DNA of 64,000 bases from an uncultured Chlorobiaceae bacterium (GTDB lineage Bacteria; Bacteroidota; Chlorobiia; Chlorobiales; Chlorobiaceae), in NCBI GenBank assembly GCA_903843305.1, contig CAIMPI010000011.1, positions 1 through 64,000 on the forward strand, in the 5' to 3' direction. The position numbers and the translations under genes are program-made. Within the stretch, counting starts at the first letter, position 1, and each line of letters opens with the position of its first letter. This document shows positions 1-45,604 of the stretch, one piece after another. The notes below the pieces were generated by a model. That model was not told where the DNA came from and did no database searches. It saw nothing but the letters and a program-made list of their open reading frames with translations.

Positions 1-888
1 CCCTGTAAGGTCGGTTTCATTGCTTCGTATTCTGCTGATCCCGATTTCATGTGGACGAACAAAGGTCTGACTTGGTTTTTCTTCAGCATGTTTCAGCTCA
101 TCAGGCGCATCAACATGGTGTGTGCCAAGACTGACCTTGCCATTTTTGATTCGCCCGTGGAAGACGTTGACATTGCCTAAAAAGTTGTAGACAAACGCAT
201 TTTTAGGATGATCATAGACCTCAAGGGGAGTTCCTTGTTGTTCAATCCGCCCTTTGTTGATGACAACAATCCGGTCTGCCAGCTCAAGGGCTTCCTCCTG
301 GTCGTGAGTGACGAAAATGCTGGTGACGTGAATTTCGTCATGAAGCTTTCTGAGCCAGCGGCGCAGCTCCTGCCGAACTTTGGCGTCAAGGGCTGAGAAG
401 GGTTCATCCAGCAGGAGTACCTTCGGATTGACGGCCAAAGCACGCGCAAGGGCTACACGCTGCCTTTGTCCACCAGAGAGCTGGGATGGGTAGCGTTTGA
501 GAGCCCATTCCATTTGCACCATTTTCAAAAGATGCTCCACTCTCTCACGAATTTCAGAACGGGATGGACGCCCTTTGCGAGGAAGAACCTTAAGACCGAA
601 AGCGACGTTTTCAAACACCGTCAGTCGTCGGAAAAGTGCGTAGTGCTGAAAAACAAAACCGACATTTTTTTCTCTGGGAGGAAGGTTTGTTGTGTCCTTG
701 TTTTCCAGAATGATTTTTCCAGCATCCGGTAGCTCAAGGCCGGCAATAATCCGCAGCAGGGTGGTCTTGCCGCAACCTGAAGGTCCGAGCAGCGCAACCA
801 GCTCGCCCGAAGCGACGTTGAGGCTGATATTGTCGAGCGCGGTGTAGCCGGTAAATTTTTTGGTAATGTTCTGAAGTTCTATACCCAT
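1..888 (-). CDS. cysA: Sulfate/thiosulfate ABC transporter ATPase CysA (3' end cut by window edge)
   Basis: ATP-hydrolysing subunit that powers sulfate or thiosulfate import. Translation from the ATG at 888 begins [12 protein letters not shown] and shows, in order, Walker [10 protein letters not shown], the Q-loop in VFQHYALF, the ABC signature QLSGGQRQR, Walker [13 protein letters not shown] and the H-loop FVTHDQEEA. The regulatory C-terminal part continues to the edge without a stop. Its start lies 8 bases after the cysW stop, so it is the last visible gene of the sbp-cysT-cysW-cysA operon. The sulfate assignment rests on this gene order as well as the ATPase sequence, which alone resembles other importer ATPases. 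Confidence 0.93.
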
Positions 889-896
889 GTCAGATC

Positions 897-1763
897 CTAA
901 TGGTGAAAGCTGTTTTTCTGAAATTGTTTTTCCATGGCCACTTTAAGTGTTACGGTGAGCAAGGCCAGAAAGACAAGGATTGATGCCACTGCGAAAGATG
1001 CCGCAAAATTGTATTCGCTGTAGAGAATTTCCACATGCAGGGGAATGGTATTCGTCTGGCCACGGATATGGCCGGAGACGACCGAGACTGCGCCGAATTC
1101 ACCGATAGAGCGTGCGCCGCAGAGGATCATCCCATACAGCAGGCCCCAACTGATATTCGGCAGGGTGATTTTCCCGAAGATCTGCCACCCTCTTGCGCCA
1201 AGCGTCAGAGCGGCCTCCTCCTCATCCCGTCCCTGTGCCTCCATAAGCGGAATCAGTTCACGGACAACAAAGGGAAAAGTGACAAAGAGCGTAGCAATAA
1301 CAATCCCTGGTGTTGAAAAAATTATCTTGATGCCATGTTCGCCGAGCCAGCCTCCAAACGGAGTACGGCTCCCGACAAGCAGTACAAAAATGAGGCCGGC
1401 AATAACCGGCGAGACAGCAAACGGGAGATCCAGCAGTGTCTTCAGCGCAGCTTTTCCTGCGAAATTGAATTTGGTGATGGCCCATGCCGCAGTCACACCG
1501 AAAAAAGCATTCAGCGGCACAACAATAGCCACGGTTGTCAGCGTCAGCTTCACTGCCTCAATTGCATACGACTCTGTTATGGATTCAAGATAGAATGCCA
1601 AACCTTTCTGGAACGCCTGCGCAAAGACCAGCCCGAGTGGCAAAAAGATAAATCCAATAAAAAAGAGCACCATCAATCCAATCAGCACAATTTGTACCTG
1701 CAGAGGATCCGAAACTCTTTTTCTGACAATTGGTGCAGTATCTGGTGTTGGTTGTTTCAGCAT
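897..1763 (-). CDS. cysW: Sulfate ABC transporter permease CysW
   Basis: One of two inner-membrane permease subunits of the sulfate importer. The 288-residue protein has about six hydrophobic segments and the cytoplasmic EAA loop that contacts CysA ([14 protein letters not shown] followed by ITLP, about residues 180-200). The conserved [14 protein letters not shown] and [13 protein letters not shown] stretches are typical of CysW. It lies 6 bases downstream of cysT and 8 bases upstream of cysA, which implies one transcript. CysW and CysT are paralogues; position and the FGAVSVVSG segment favour CysW here. Confidence 0.93.
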
Positions 1764-1769
1764 AATCGA

Positions 1770-2603
1770 TTAACGGTATTCTTTCTGTTGCCACTCCTGA
1801 ATCGCGTTCAGCATCAGGAGCATTGAAAAGGAGATAAGCAAAAGCACCAACGCGACAGCCGAAGCTCCGGCATAGTCGAACTGATCAAGTTTGGACATGA
1901 TCATGAGCGGCGCAATTTCGGTTTTCATCGGAAGATTGCCAGCGATGAAAATCACCGAACCATACTCTCCGATACCACGTGCAAAAGCCAGAGTTGAACC
2001 GGTAAGCAGGGCGGGGAAGAGATGCGGCAGCAGGATTCTTCTGAAGGTCTGCCAGCGTGTTGCGCCAAGGCAGTGCGCTGCCTCTTCAATCTCCTGCTCA
2101 ACCTCTTCCAGAACAGGCTGGATGGTACGGACAACAAAGGGAAAGCCGATGAAGACAAGGGCGACAACAATGCCTGTCGCCGAGTTGATGATAGTAATAT
2201 TCCACTTGGTTAACGTTGCACCGAGCCATCCAACTGGAGAGTAAAGGGTCGCAAAGCAGATACCGGCAACGGCGGTAGGCAGTGCAAACGGGAGATCGAC
2301 AAGAGCATCAAGAAACTGCTTGCCGGGAAAACGGTAGCGCACCAGCACCCATGCTGTCAGCAGCCCGGCCACAGCATCAAAAATGGCAGCGAAGAACGCT
2401 GTTGAAAAACTCAGTCGGTAGGAGGCAAGAACGCGGGGAGCCGTTACGGCGTGAACAAATGGATCCCATCCCATGGGAACGGTGTTGAAGAATATCATGC
2501 TCAGTGGCACAATCACAATTGCCGAGAGGTAGAATACAGTGTATCCCATCGACAATCCAAAACCTGGCAAAATGTTGCGCCTTTTTATCGGAAATAATCC
2601 CAT
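1770..2603 (-). CDS. cysT: Sulfate ABC transporter permease CysT (CysU)
   Basis: First permease subunit of the sulfate importer, 277 residues. It has an N-terminal membrane segment after residue 15, the DLPFALPTAVAGI segment characteristic of CysT, and an EAA loop (EIEEAAHCLGATRWQTF then ILLP). IGEYGSVIFIAGNLP near the C-terminus is also family-typical. The gap to the upstream binding-protein gene is 78 bases and contains a strong hairpin (2625-2660), so expression may step down between the two genes. Confidence 0.93.
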   Translation of the reverse strand: MGLFPIKRRNILPGFGLSMGYTVFYLSAIVIVPLSMIFFNTVPMGWDPFVHAVTAPRVLASYRLSFSTAFFAAIFDAVAGLLTAWVLVRYRFPGKQFLDALVDLPFALPTAVAGICFATLYSPVGWLGATLTKWNITIINSATGIVVALVFIGFPFVVRTIQPVLEEVEQEIEEAAHCLGATRWQTFRRILLPHLFPALLTGSTLAFARGIGEYGSVIFIAGNLPMKTEIAPLMIMSKLDQFDYAGASAVALVLLLISFSMLLMLNAIQEWQQKEYR

Positions 2604-2681: not shown

Positions 2682-3698
2682 TCAGGGAACGTAAATCTGA
2701 TCAAAAACGCCGCCATCGTTAAAATGGGTTTTCTGGGCTGCACGCCAGTTTCCGAACACTTCTTTGATGGTAAAAAGCTTGATTTTCGGGAAGTTTCCGG
2801 CATATTTCTTCAGTGCTGCAGCATTGCGTGGGCGATACGAGTTCTGGGCAATGATATCCTGAGCTTGAGGAGTGTACAGGAAGTTCAGATAGGCTTCAGC
2901 AAGTTTTCGTGTTCCATGTTTATCAACGTTTTTATCAACGATGGCGACGGGTGGTTCTGCAAGAATGCTTACCGCAGGAGAGATGATTTCATACTTGTCT
3001 GATCCGAACTCCTTGAGAATCAGGTGAGCCTCATTTTCCCACGCAAGGAGCACATCACCAAGGCCTCGCTGTGCGAAAGTCAGAGTTGAGCCGCGTGCGC
3101 CAGTATCAAGCACTGGGACATTCTTGTAGATTGCCTTGACAAAAGCTTTGGCCTTTTCTGCAGAGCCGGTCTGTTTCTGTTTGTATCCCCATGCAGCCAG
3201 GTAGTTCCAGCGGGCGCCACCGGATGTTTTTGGATTTGGAGTAATGACGGAAACACCCGTTTTGGTCAGATCATCCCAGCCCTTGATCTGTTTCGGATTA
3301 CCTTTTCTTACCACAAAGACAATAGTGGAGGTGTAGGGTGTGCTGTTGTTGGCCAGTCTGCTCTGCCAGTTGGCAGGCAAGAGTTTGCTGTCGGAGATAG
3401 CGTCAATGTCATAGGCCAGGGCCAGTGTGACAACATCAGCCTCCAGACCATCAATGACCGCACGGGCCTGTTTTCCCGATCCACCGTGTGACTGGTCAAT
3501 TTTCACGGTCTGACCGGTTTTCTTCTGCCAGTACTGAATAAAAGCGGCATTTTCGCTCTGATAGAGTTCTCTTGTGGGGTCATAAGAGACATTAAGCAGC
3601 GTTGAAGCAGCAGCGGCTTCTGCAATCGTTCCCGGCAGACCGGATGCAAGAACAAGCGATGCAAAAAGCGTAATTTTTTTCGTCCATTCAAAATTCAT
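2682..3698 (-). CDS. sbp: Periplasmic sulfate-binding protein
   Basis: Periplasmic solute receptor of the sulfate importer. From the ATG at 3698, preceded by a GGGAGATAA-like ribosome site, the 338-residue product has a signal peptide (MNFEWTKK, a hydrophobic core, then A-rich cleavage region). The mature start [14 protein letters not shown] is the classic entry of the Sbp/CysP family. [10 protein letters not shown] and [11 protein letters not shown] in the middle and C-terminal half are family-typical. The reading frame stays open to 3746, but the shorter start gives a clean signal sequence. It is first in the sbp-cysTWA operon and follows a leader with an intrinsic terminator. Thiosulfate may also be a ligand. 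Confidence 0.94.
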
Positions 3699-3754
3699 TG
3701 TATTATCTCCCTGTAACGTATTTATAGTTTTAGTGTAATAATGCAAAAATCAGC

Positions 3755-3790
3755 AAAAAAAAACCGGTTCACTGTGGTGTCAGGAACCGG
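3755..3790 (-). terminator. Intrinsic terminator in the leader of the sulfate-uptake operon
   Basis: On the minus strand a 7-bp perfect stem (3784-3790 with 3764-3770), extended by three more pairs across a bulge, is followed at once by nine T residues (3763-3755). It lies about 57 bases upstream of the sbp start and in the same direction. No other minus-strand gene ends nearby except rimO about 250 bases earlier. A possible competing pairing is visible: GAACC at 3815-3811 can pair with GGTTC in the 5' arm of the terminator. This is what a transcription attenuator or riboswitch expression platform looks like. Confidence 0.7.
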
Positions 3791-4000
3791 CCATGGCAAA
3801 AAACAGCTATGGTTCTACCTACACAAGCCAGAAATTCCTTTGTCAGCACAAATACTCGGTTGACAGCAGCAAATGGTTGTTTGGTTATCTAAAACAGTGC
3901 TCATTGCTTCAATAGTTGGTTAACGATTGTTAATAAAGCACAATGTTTTCAATGTTTCCAAGCTTGGAGTATAAAAATACCGTAAATATGGTATGAAGTC
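3791..4000 (-). promoter_or_regulatory. Leader region of sbp, possible aptamer or attenuator; otherwise no gene
   Basis: This stretch between the rimO stop (4043) and the leader terminator holds no ORF that I can support. It contains an imperfect hairpin (3791-3797 with 3806-3812) directly before the terminator, a 12-base palindrome around 3957-3968 and a short inverted repeat ending in T residues near 3970-3990 that may serve rimO. I do not recognise a known riboswitch class here. Confidence 0.35.
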
Positions 4001-4042
4001 AGGGGTCAGGGGCAGGCAACGTCGGCTTGTAGTTTTTTTGGG

Positions 4043-5344
4043 CTACTCTTCTTCAGTTCTCTCAATTTTGCCATACAGCTCATAAGCCGATGAATCGCTG
4101 AAGGTTGCCATGCAGAATGACCCGACGGTGACTGGTGTATCTCCAATTGAAAGAATACACTCATTATCTACTTCTGGTGCATCGTACTCAGTTCTTCCAA
4201 AGGCGGTGCCACCCTCAATCTGTTCAATCAGAACCTTGATTGTTTTTCCCTCAAAGAAGCGGTTATTCTCTGTGGCAACAGCTTCCTGAATTTCCATGAG
4301 TTCCGCTATTCGCTCCTGTTTTTCTTCGGGTGTTACGGTCTCTTCAAGCGCATAGGATGCGGCATACTCTTCGTGGCAGTAGGGGAAACAGCCAAGCCGG
4401 TCGAAACGGCTCGTCTCGATAAACTCCAGCAGCTCCTCGAACTCCTCTCTCGTTTCTCCGGGATAACCGGCAATCATGGTGGTGCGCAGGCGGATATCAG
4501 GGTTCTTCTCCCTGATGGTTTCAAGAAGGCGAATGGTTTCCTGCTTGTTGATGCCACGGTTCATTGAATGGAGGATGCGGTCATTACAATGTTGCAAGGG
4601 GATGTCGAGATAGTTGCACAGATTCTGCCGGTCACGCATTGTCTGAATCACTTCGAGCGGAAAATTCACAGGATAGGCGTAAAGCAGTCTTATCCAGTCA
4701 AAAGCCATGTCAGAGAGACGGAGCACAAGATCATTGAGCATAGATTTGCCAACCGTATCATAGCCGAACATGCTGATATCCTGGGCAATGACATTAAGCT
4801 CTCTTACACCGTTTTGCTGCAACAACGCGGCTTCACGCAAAAGCTGGTCGATTGGCTGGCTCCTGTAGCGCCCCCTGATTTTCGGAATAGAGCAGAACGA
4901 GCAGCCTCGATTACACCCTTCTGCAATCTTGAGGTATGAGTAATGAGAAGGAGTAAGCAGCGATCGTCGGTCGTAAAGCTCCTCGCGATAGGATGCTCCA
5001 ATGGCAGCAAGTACTTCAGGCAGTTCACGAGTCCCGAAAAAGCCGTCAACCTCCGGCATCTCCTTCTTCATTTCTTGCCGGTAAAGCTCGCTGAGGCAAC
5101 CCATTACAAAGACTTTCTGAATTTTCCCCTCTTCCTTTTTATCAATAGCGGCAAGCGTTTCAGCAATCGATTCTTCCTTGGCATCTTCAATAAAACCACA
5201 GGTGTTGATAAGAATAGTGTCCGCGTCATCAGCGTGTTCAGTAAAGACAATACCGGAAGCCTCAGCCTGAGCCATCAGACGTTCAGAATCGACAGTATTT
5301 TTAGAGCATCCGAGGCTCAGAAGAAAGACTTTATGCTTGGTCAT
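4043..5344 (-). CDS. rimO: Ribosomal protein S12 methylthiotransferase RimO
   Basis: Radical-SAM enzyme that adds a methylthio group to an aspartate of ribosomal protein S12. The 433-residue product has an N-terminal UPF0004 domain starting KHKVFLLSLGCSKNTVDSE, whose SLGCSKN sequence separates RimO from MiaB. The radical-SAM motif is CNRGCSFCSIP, near residue 140, and a TRAM domain closes the protein. The ATG at 5344 is chosen because family members begin just before KHKVFLL; the frame is open to 5398. The start overlaps the end of tgt by 14 bases, so both RNA/ribosome-modifying genes are probably co-transcribed. Confidence 0.93.
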   Translation of the reverse strand: MTKHKVFLLSLGCSKNTVDSERLMAQAEASGIVFTEHADDADTILINTCGFIEDAKEESIAETLAAIDKKEEGKIQKVFVMGCLSELYRQEMKKEMPEVDGFFGTRELPEVLAAIGASYREELYDRRSLLTPSHYSYLKIAEGCNRGCSFCSIPKIRGRYRSQPIDQLLREAALLQQNGVRELNVIAQDISMFGYDTVGKSMLNDLVLRLSDMAFDWIRLLYAYPVNFPLEVIQTMRDRQNLCNYLDIPLQHCNDRILHSMNRGINKQETIRLLETIREKNPDIRLRTTMIAGYPGETREEFEELLEFIETSRFDRLGCFPYCHEEYAASYALEETVTPEEKQERIAELMEIQEAVATENNRFFEGKTIKVLIEQIEGGTAFGRTEYDAPEVDNECILSIGDTPVTVGSFCMATFSDSSAYELYGKIERTEEE

Positions 5345-6467
5345 TGCTGTTGTTGAATTGGTCGAGAAAATCTTGTTTCCATTCTGAAAATGAGCCATTC
5401 TGAATCTCTTTGCGTGCTGTCGCGGTGAGCCACATAAAAAAAGAAATATTCTGCAGTGTACAGAGCTTCAGTCCCAGAATCTCACCCACATTAAGCAGAT
5501 GGCGGATATAGCCGCGAGAATAGTTTCGGCAGACCTCATTTTCGAAGCCCTCATCTATTGAGCTGAAATCATCAGCATATTTTGCCGAGCGCAGATTTAT
5601 TTTGCCACATCGGGTATAGACCCTTCCGTTTCGCCCTTCGCGCGTTGGGATGACACAGTCGAACATATCAACGCCTCGCTCAATGGCGTTCAGAATATTC
5701 TCCGGTGTGCCGACACCCATGAGGTAGCGTGGTTTCTCTTCGGGCAGTAGCGTGTGTGACAGTTCAAGAATGCGATACATTTCAGGGGCAGGTTCTCCTA
5801 CAGCCATACCGCCAATAGCATATCCGTCAAAGTCAAGATCAACAAGTTCGTTTGTTGAGATAGTACGTAAATCAGCATGAATTCCGCCCTGGGTGATACC
5901 GAAAAGGTACTGTTTATGGCCGTAAAGAGGTTCCGTCAGACTGAAATGCTTCCGTGCCCTTTCAGCCCAGCGAATAGTCAGCTCACCGGAGATACGGACA
6001 TAATCCCTTTCAGCGGTTGACGGAGGACACTCATCCAGGGGCATCATGATATCGCTGCCGATAATGCGTTCGGTATCCACCACATTTTCAGGAGTGAAGA
6101 GCTGTTTGGAACCATCAAGATGCGACTTGAACATCACTCCCTCCTCACTGATTTTTCGCAAATCGGAGAGTGAATAGACCTGATAGCCGCCACTGTCGGT
6201 CAAAAGCGCTCCTTGCCAGTTCATGAACCGATGCACGCCACCGGCCTTCAACAGAATATCATTTCCCGGTCTCAGGTAGAGATGATAAGTATTAGCCAGA
6301 ATAATATGGACATGCTGCTCTTTCAGCTCATGCGGTTCAACCGATTTCACGCTCGCCCGAGTGCCCACCGGCATAAAGACCGGAGTAGGAACAGTGCCGT
6401 GGTCAGTCTGCAGAACGCCGCATCTCGCAGAAGTTCTGGAGTCTTTTGTGGTAACCGTGAATTTCAT
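5331..6467 (-). CDS. tgt: Queuine tRNA-ribosyltransferase Tgt, zinc ligands missing
   Basis: Exchanges guanine-34 of GUN tRNAs for the queuosine precursor. The ATG at 6467 gives 378 residues starting MKFTVTTKDSRTSARCG, as usual for bacterial Tgt. LTDSGGYQVYSL, LMGVGTPENIL and DMFDCVIPTREGRNG (catalytic Asp region) are present. The C-terminal zinc site, normally CxCxxC plus a His, is not: the segment reads GFENEVCRNYSRGYIRHLL and later CTLQNISFF, so two Cys are F and N and the usual His is Q. The fold around it is otherwise well kept. The gene precedes rimO with a small overlap. Confidence 0.92.
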   Translation of the reverse strand: MKFTVTTKDSRTSARCGVLQTDHGTVPTPVFMPVGTRASVKSVEPHELKEQHVHIILANTYHLYLRPGNDILLKAGGVHRFMNWQGALLTDSGGYQVYSLSDLRKISEEGVMFKSHLDGSKQLFTPENVVDTERIIGSDIMMPLDECPPSTAERDYVRISGELTIRWAERARKHFSLTEPLYGHKQYLFGITQGGIHADLRTISTNELVDLDFDGYAIGGMAVGEPAPEMYRILELSHTLLPEEKPRYLMGVGTPENILNAIERGVDMFDCVIPTREGRNGRVYTRCGKINLRSAKYADDFSSIDEGFENEVCRNYSRGYIRHLLNVGEILGLKLCTLQNISFFMWLTATARKEIQNGSFSEWKQDFLDQFNNSNDQA

Positions 6468-45129: not shown

Positions 45130-45373
45130 GATGTAATAAAAATTTGGTTGTCGGCCGTTACGTCGGTATCGTCATGAAAAAAATGAGCTTGGCTTGACAT
45201 TTCGCACTTCGAAAGCATGGAAATGGTTATGGTGTTCGGCAACATGAAAAAAAATTACAAGACAAAAAGATTTTTTGAAAGAAAATCGCGCGGAGTGCGT
45301 ACTAATTAGGGAGAAGTGAATTGCTTCGGTTTATTTAAAGATGTTTCCATTAAAAATAAAAGTAAAATAACTT

Positions 45374-45604
45374 ATGAAAAAGAATCTTATCGCAGGTATT
45401 GTTTTTTCTCTTGCAGTGACCGGATTTTTTGGTGGCGTTTCTTTTGCAGCAGACGCGACAGCACCTGCGGCTCCAGCAAAGGTTGAGGTAAAAGCAGAAA
45501 AGGCACCAGCTCCAGCAGCAAAAAAGAAGGCTGCAAAGAAAAAAGCTGCCAAGAAAGCTGAAGTAAAGAAAGAAGAAGTAAAGAAAGAAGAAGCAAAAAA
45601 GTAA
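45374..45604 (+). CDS. Secreted Ala/Lys-rich low-complexity protein
   Basis: 76 residues. After a signal peptide (MKKNLIAGIVFSLAVTGFFG..., cleaved near SFAAD) the mature part is nearly all Ala, Lys, Glu and Pro, with KKKAAKKKAAKKAE and a threefold VKKEE-type repeat at the end. It resembles histone H1-like tails but is exported, so it may bind polyanions at the envelope. A strong terminator follows at 45711. Confidence 0.75.
   Translation: MKKNLIAGIVFSLAVTGFFGGVSFAADATAPAAPAKVEVKAEKAPAPAAKKKAAKKKAAKKAEVKKEEVKKEEAKK

Follow-up and report, generated by a model that had tools for sequence, protein, structure and literature searches.

A putative cysteine-codon leader peptide and transcription attenuator before the sulfate-import operon of Chlorobiaceae

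We have found that the sulfate-import operon sbp-cysTWA of an uncultured Chlorobiaceae bacterium is preceded by a leader that, as judged from comparative sequence analysis, is very probably a ribosome-mediated transcription attenuator sensing charged tRNA-Cys. The operon lies in a stretch of 64,000 nucleotides (the window) from a draft genome of 2.59 Mb in 55 contigs, whose closest named relatives are Chlorobiaceae MAGs. Comparison of homologous leaders establishes a short upstream open reading frame (uORF) with cysteine codons, an intrinsic terminator and the spacings between them (Table 1). Since the Cys codons stand at a near-fixed distance from the stop codon of the uORF, and the stop codon at a near-fixed distance from the terminator, the leader has the anatomy of a leader-peptide attenuator. 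We suggest that the importer is probably made mainly when cysteine is short.

Table 1. Features of the sbp leader and operon in the window, with further Cys leaders and variant tRNA-Cys copies elsewhere
Feature	Position	Strand	Sequence, basis or remark
sbp, sulfate-binding protein	2682..3698	minus	NCBIfam NF008022 and TIGR00971
cysT, sulfate permease	1770..2603	minus	NCBIfam TIGR02139
cysW, sulfate permease	897..1763	minus	NCBIfam TIGR02140
cysA, ATPase, partial (gene cut by window edge)	1..888	minus	Open frame, named by eye
Operator, inverted heptamers 2 bases apart	3978..3993	minus	TACCATATTTACGGTA; conservation of TACC-N8-GGTA
Putative promoter, TTGGAA 3961-3956, 18 bases, TTTATT 3937-3932	3932..3961	minus	Conservation, by eye
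Inverted repeat overlapping expected start	3920..3933	minus	TTAACAATCGTTAA; similar sequence at sir and DUF4395-metY operons
Leader peptide ORF, 29 codons	3904-3815	minus	MSTVLDNQTTICCCQPSICADKGISGLCR*; Cys uORF in all 42 leaders examined
Control codons TGC TGC TGT	3863..3871	minus	Read from sequence
Region 1 (GTCAA), partner of region 2	3860..3864	minus	Helix 1:2 pairing
Region 2 (CTGGCT), end of leader ORF	3826..3831	minus	Helix 2:3 pairing
Small hairpin, after the stop codon and before the terminator, CCAT 3812-3809 / ATGG 3794-3791	3791..3812	minus	64% paired vs 19-39% slid
Region 3 (GGCCGG), terminator 5' arm and putative antiterminator partner of region 2	3787..3792	minus	RNAalifold, helix 2:3
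Terminator hairpin, regions 3 and 4	3790-3764	minus	CCGGTTCCTGACACCACAGTGAACCGG; fold and helix 3:4 pairing
Nine T directly after hairpin	3763-3755	minus	Read from sequence
Candidate Cys leader at porin	C25		MNFQLMTYKSISFGRPCSCCCLWIDVEKRNSRLST*
Candidate Cys leader at DUF4395-metY-regulator-cysK	C31		MNSGTSKTFTMSCCCCRWSNHSDTGISGRRL*; metY and cysK named by eye
Candidate Cys leader at BadF-type activase, then HGD-D proteins	C9		MTKSKISDSFLYCCCFQENQKAIIIVPT*
Candidate Cys leader at Porin_O_P gene	C9		MNVIVILNPPCCCRFIAL*; weakest of the five candidates
Variant tRNA-Cys copies, amber anticodon CTA	L305:90-165, L311:89-164
Variant tRNA-Cys copies, 8-base loops	L306:278-353, L308:94-169, L309:101-176
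Variant tRNA-Cys copies, other anticodons	L307:282-358 (aaa), L316:93-170 (ata)

Our leader set was drawn from 51 Chlorobiaceae sbp loci, of which 11 were left out (L052, L056, L087 and L089, whose upstream sequence is truncated; L080-L083, leaderless paralogs that carry the operator; and L094-L096, copies without it) and was completed with the window (L009) and L036 to make 42 leaders; alignment A1 has 41 rows, the duplicate L079 being omitted. A cysteine-containing uORF, its start codon chosen by hand in 11 of the 42, is present in every leader, with adjacent Cys codons in 39 (the exceptions being L064, L085 and L086) and three Cys codons in a row in 24. An automated search that involved no choice by hand found an ORF with two adjacent Cys codons (CC) in 90% of the leaders versus 2.3% of dinucleotide shuffles, and one with three (CCC) in 55% versus 0.2%. 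The Cys run and the stop codon lie 48 nt apart in 20 of the 42 leaders, and the stop codon and the terminator 26 nt apart in 19 of them. In the window's leader the Cys codon at 3865-3863 aligns with the conserved GCTGTC of A1, and no clear Shine-Dalgarno sequence precedes the ORF. Residues other than cysteine vary freely across the leaders, and the uORF shows no excess of differences at third positions (101/98/82 differences; 36 synonymous, 165 not), which agrees with a peptide whose control codons alone count; given the absence of such an excess, it is codon content and the open frame alone that argue for coding. Among sbp relatives from outside Chlorobi, 28 of 29 of which were examined, a CC ORF occurs in just one (L119), which we take to be chance. 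We also note that the sbp gene of L015 (G018:C125) carries one in-frame TAG, which might be genuine, an error or suppressed.

An earlier note on this DNA had claimed an intrinsic terminator 57 bases before the sbp start, with a competing pairing upstream, and had read premature termination as the control of sulfate uptake. The hairpin has a stem of ten pairs, and the T run that follows it ends 57 bases short of the sbp start codon (ATG at 3698). The segment 3815-3755 folds at -21.4 kcal/mol (z -3.88, with none of 200 shuffles equally stable); the 213-nt leader taken as a whole is of ordinary stability (z -0.89, matched by 37 of 200 shuffles). A simple terminator scan of the window did not report this hairpin, we think because a bulge makes its loop too long for the limits of the scan. 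A terminator hairpin is found in all 42 intact homologous leaders, at -8.3 to -21.5 kcal/mol. Between the Cys codons and the T run, alignment columns are on average 56% identical, and the conserved blocks are the Cys-codon region, region 2 and the terminator. When helices 1:2, 2:3 and 3:4 were scored over the 41 sequences of A1, 74.6%, 82.4% and 95.5% of cells were paired, against 26-44%, 7-49% and 26-46% in the respective slid controls; the pairing of the small hairpin was moved by one column after its slid control, the initial out-of-register version being 31% paired. The covariation of helices 1:2 and 3:4 was reached by none of 500 shuffles, and that of helix 2:3 is weak and was reached by 57 of 500; these shuffle counts are inflated by relatedness and refer to structures derived from the same sequences. 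Applied to the 41 leaders, RNAalifold returns the terminator in the full RNA, helix 1:2 in the RNA without a ribosome, and helix 2:3 when the RNA begins past a Cys-stalled ribosome and ends before the 3' arm of the terminator. Less strongly than for the ORF, the spacings and the terminator, the comparison points to an antiterminator (2:3) and a terminator (3:4) that would be mutually exclusive. Both the terminator and the competing pairing of the earlier note, the latter being that of regions 2 and 3, are thus borne out, and the conserved terminator, the alternative helices and the position of the operator speak for its reading that sulfate import is controlled by premature termination.

From this anatomy we infer the translation of the ORF, the stalling of ribosomes upon it, the start of transcription and the direction of the response. 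Transcription, expected to start near 3925, would begin under the shared sulfur operator, and a ribosome would start on the leader ORF. With ample Cys-tRNA, the ribosome would clear the Cys-Cys-Cys stretch, reach the stop codon at 3817-3815 and cover region 2, so that region 3 would pair with region 4 and RNA polymerase would halt at the T run. With scarce Cys-tRNA, the ribosome would stall on the Cys codons and cover region 1, leaving region 2 to pair with region 3; helix 2:3, once formed, would delay or prevent the terminator, and sbp-cysTWA would be transcribed. In a folding model of 40 distinct leaders, the ribosome edge being taken as 14 nt, sequestration of the 5' arm of the terminator is predicted at 0.72 with the ribosome stalled and at 0.21 with the ribosome at the stop codon, shuffles giving 0.56 (z 5.3). 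Untranslated attenuator RNA is by textbook expectation terminated, the protector helix 1:2 favouring termination; in our model the arm is still sequestered without a ribosome (0.70), and the model does not recover the role that textbooks give to helix 1:2. The contrast is smaller in 24 other leaders of the supposed regulon described below (0.54 stalled versus 0.32 at the stop codon, several arms having been mis-picked), and it is reversed in the porin leader of the window's own genome (0.67 versus 0.85).

Upstream of the uORF lies a probable activator site, which we take to resemble two NarL-type heptamers. The motif TACC-N8-GGTA is present in 40 of the 42 leaders, about 280-310 bases before sbp (38 of 40 by pattern, those of L009 and L036 being read), and it also precedes the sulfite-reductase (sir) operon in 26 of 27 loci, as well as cysK in the window's genome. 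That genome has exact copies of the pattern TACCNTANNTANGGTA at just two places, one before sbp and one before cysK; when one mismatch is permitted, the operator is not enriched over a reversed control (8 versus 11 places, one strand). We note that the paralogous sbp copies L080-L083 and L044 have the operator and promoter-like boxes without a leader peptide or terminator, which shows that operator and attenuator are separate modules. Besides the putative promoter of Table 1, a consensus scan proposes a different promoter-like pair at 3997-3968. The inverted repeat TTAAC-N4-GTTAA stands at the expected starts of sbp, of sir (L039 near 11755) and of the metY operon (L040 near C31:83850), and is possibly a second operator. 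A candidate binder of TACC-N8-GGTA is P0001, a NarL-type protein with Response_reg and GerE domains whose gene lies between metY and cysK (L040:5141-5794 = G000:C31:81140-81793) and, in G031, directly before the sbp leader. P0001 and sbp are either both present or both absent in 33 of 37 genus genomes (Fisher p 5e-5, uncorrected for relatedness), although a shared pathway alone could explain this co-occurrence. A LysR-type HTH and TOBE protein (ModE-like) is encoded upstream of the DUF4395-metY operon (L040:7921-8730, G000:C31).

The earlier note could match the leader to no known riboswitch, as our Rfam scan confirms (no match in the window at gathering scores, and none in 3600-4100 at E up to 5), and thought that it might be a new sensor of sulfate, cysteine, O-acetylserine or SAM. 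A translation-independent riboswitch for one of these metabolites would account for a conserved leader with a terminator and an alternative pairing, and the untranslated RNA, too, is predicted to sequester the terminator arm. Such a riboswitch would nevertheless leave the Cys codons and the open frame unexplained, and the conserved blocks hold no aptamer-like core; with what is conserved being a Cys-codon ORF at near-fixed spacings, we regard this reading as very improbable, and of the earlier proposal it is cysteine as the signal that fits, not its sensing by a riboswitch. Quite improbable, in our view, is a different route through the peptide, by arrest of the nascent chain or by the binding of a metal or thiol signal through the peptide's cysteines. 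It would give a part to the further Cys that is common close to the stop codon (GLCR, GSCR, GCCP), but the residues other than cysteine vary freely here, which is not expected of arrest peptides, and the distances to regions 2 and 3 agree with stalling at specific codons.

It might also be that the hairpin only terminates an upstream gene or a small RNA and that sbp has its own promoter downstream. A same-strand gene (4043-5398, RimO-like by eye) does lie upstream of the leader and ends about 250 bases before the hairpin, and the earlier note's argument that no gene needs a terminator there was therefore unsafe by itself. Comparison removes this objection, because the leader stands before sbp even in genomes that differ in what lies upstream of the operator, the leader of G031 being directly preceded by a response-regulator gene. 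Moreover, operator and promoter-like boxes lie upstream of the uORF in the 40 leaders mentioned above, and the operator is found 101 bases from the gene in the leaderless paralogs L080-L083. We consider a mere upstream terminator extremely improbable, and a ribosome-mediated attenuator responding to charged tRNA-Cys is the reading that we carry forward.

Leaders of the same design, with different terminators, stand before other sulfur genes. A covariance search with the leader, which the earlier note had proposed, was carried out with a model (R1) built from 41 sbp leaders; R1 matches 40 of 65 genus genomes at E < 1e-9, many of those species having supplied the model, and in all 24 of these 40 genomes that were also searched for sbp the match sits at sbp. 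Weaker matches lie beside porin genes and about 2 kb upstream of a response-regulator gene, the latter position being, by analogy with the window's genome, presumably before DUF4395-metY; a CC uORF followed by a terminator is found in all 20 of those fetched (11 on the regulator side and 9 at porins). Among 20 more matches, selected manually at E values no higher than about 0.001, CC uORF and terminator are present in 18 (not in L273 and L278). These 18 include two sbp, two metY and two porin leaders again, and the remaining 12 precede taurine/nitrate-type ABC ATPase, radical-SAM, Porin_O_P-like, PNPOx-like and NifH-like genes, a few of these downstream genes being named by similarity to searched ones.

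The window's genome holds five Cys-leader candidates, sbp included. A search of this genome with R1 gave 12 matches, and of the 11 beyond sbp one (C9:63105) has a CC uORF and terminator; the porin and metY leaders escaped this search, and a direct search gives them 21.8 and 19.1 bits. A match within the window at 45354-45466 (E 0.0015) is without a Cys uORF and was taken as false. No ATG-started CC uORF with a terminator is found at the sir operon of this genome; a TTG-started frame ending YCCNI* lies just before sir, and CC ORFs whose significance is doubtful turn up at some further sir loci (L199, L205, L207 and L210, that of L207 spanning a tRNA-Cys). The sister genus g19 gave three strong matches, a script finding CC uORF and terminator in G090 and G098, not in G097 (L297), and in other families of the order (f2-f4) the best R1 match has E 0.027. 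Behind a Cys leader peptide of the window's genome lies an operon with a BadF-type activase and HGD-D/double-cubane-like proteins (L303:2012-7010 = G000:C9:58011-63009), a candidate for an ATP-driven reductase of a sulfur compound. At L276:341-1419 (G061:C40) a NifH-like gene stands behind a Cys uORF and terminator; it could be part of a nitrogenase-like sulfur-salvage enzyme, possibly of the methylthio-alkane reductase kind. The regulon predicted with R1 points to little-studied genes, those for double-cubane-type reductases, NifH-like and radical-SAM proteins and porins, as candidates for a role in acquiring sulfur.

Between the porin and the sulfite-reductase operon of the window's genome we find a 75-nt tRNA-Cys(GCA) (L039:11516-11590 = G000:C25:68515-68589) that is distinct from the ordinary 71-nt tRNA-Cys at C21 (L304:305-376). 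ARAGORN reports a tRNA-Cys near the sulfite-reductase operon in 14 of 27 loci, and sequence similar to the variant (77-100% identity) is present in 44 of 65 genus genomes, its occurrence matching that of sbp in 33 of 37. Some genomes have copies close to the metY leader that are more diverged, and among the tandem copies there are some with an altered anticodon or loop (Table 1); these altered copies may be suppressor tRNAs, non-decoding tRNAs or decaying duplicates. The variant may be a plain extra gene that is expressed with the pathway. One can also conceive of a circuit centred on tRNA-Cys, in which Cys leaders attenuate uptake and salvage operons, a dedicated variant tRNA-Cys is encoded next to or inside those operons, in some species with additional copies that have a CTA anticodon or eight-base loops, and the attenuators read, or are tuned by, the variant rather than the ordinary tRNA-Cys in sulfur starvation, a proposal that we think unlikely.

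In the classical attenuators of enterobacteria (trp, his, leu and thr), control codons lie near the start of a 1:2/2:3/3:4 set of helices. The sbp leader differs from these in that its codons are for cysteine and its target would be an importer, not a biosynthetic operon. Our literature search, which left most subscription papers outside its reach, returned no report of cysteine leader peptides for Chlorobi, and where PMC2965389, PMC4833913 and PMC3766115 mention Chlorobi, they do not discuss attenuators of this kind. Sulfate assimilation has been described for C. ferrooxidans, C. luteolum and C. phaeoferrooxidans (PMC5498476), in a paper whose accessible part does not treat the regulation of sulfur genes. 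Our proposal offers a concrete and testable answer to how green sulfur bacteria obliged to assimilate sulfate, for example photoferrotrophs, sense their need for sulfur.

The closest likeness is to leaders known from other phyla, as far as the accessible portions of the sources describe them. Short ORFs with runs of Cys codons stand before cys operons of Mycobacterium and P. acnes and before cbs of B. longum; these actinobacterial leaders have no conserved terminator hairpin and Rho was suggested (PMC1262725), whereas in Chlorobiaceae the intrinsic terminator is found in 42 of 42. Polycysteine uORFs before sulfur genes of M. smegmatis are reported, from experiment, to be cysteine-responsive (Canestrari 2020, cited in PMC13236596); there the ORFs are leaderless and the mechanism, according to the citing paper, is translation attenuation, whereas for the sbp leader we predict transcription termination. 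In Rhodobacterales, uORFC-8-2 before cysS has been proposed to respond to uncharged tRNA-Cys (PMC8632094). Like the sbp leader, it combines tandem Cys codons in a short uORF with alternative stems and a U run; by its published description, it differs in phylum and in the gene that follows. Cysteine leader peptides are therefore already known from Actinobacteria and Rhodobacterales; the sbp leader would add a case from Chlorobi and would carry cysteine attenuation by way of an intrinsic terminator into a further phylum.
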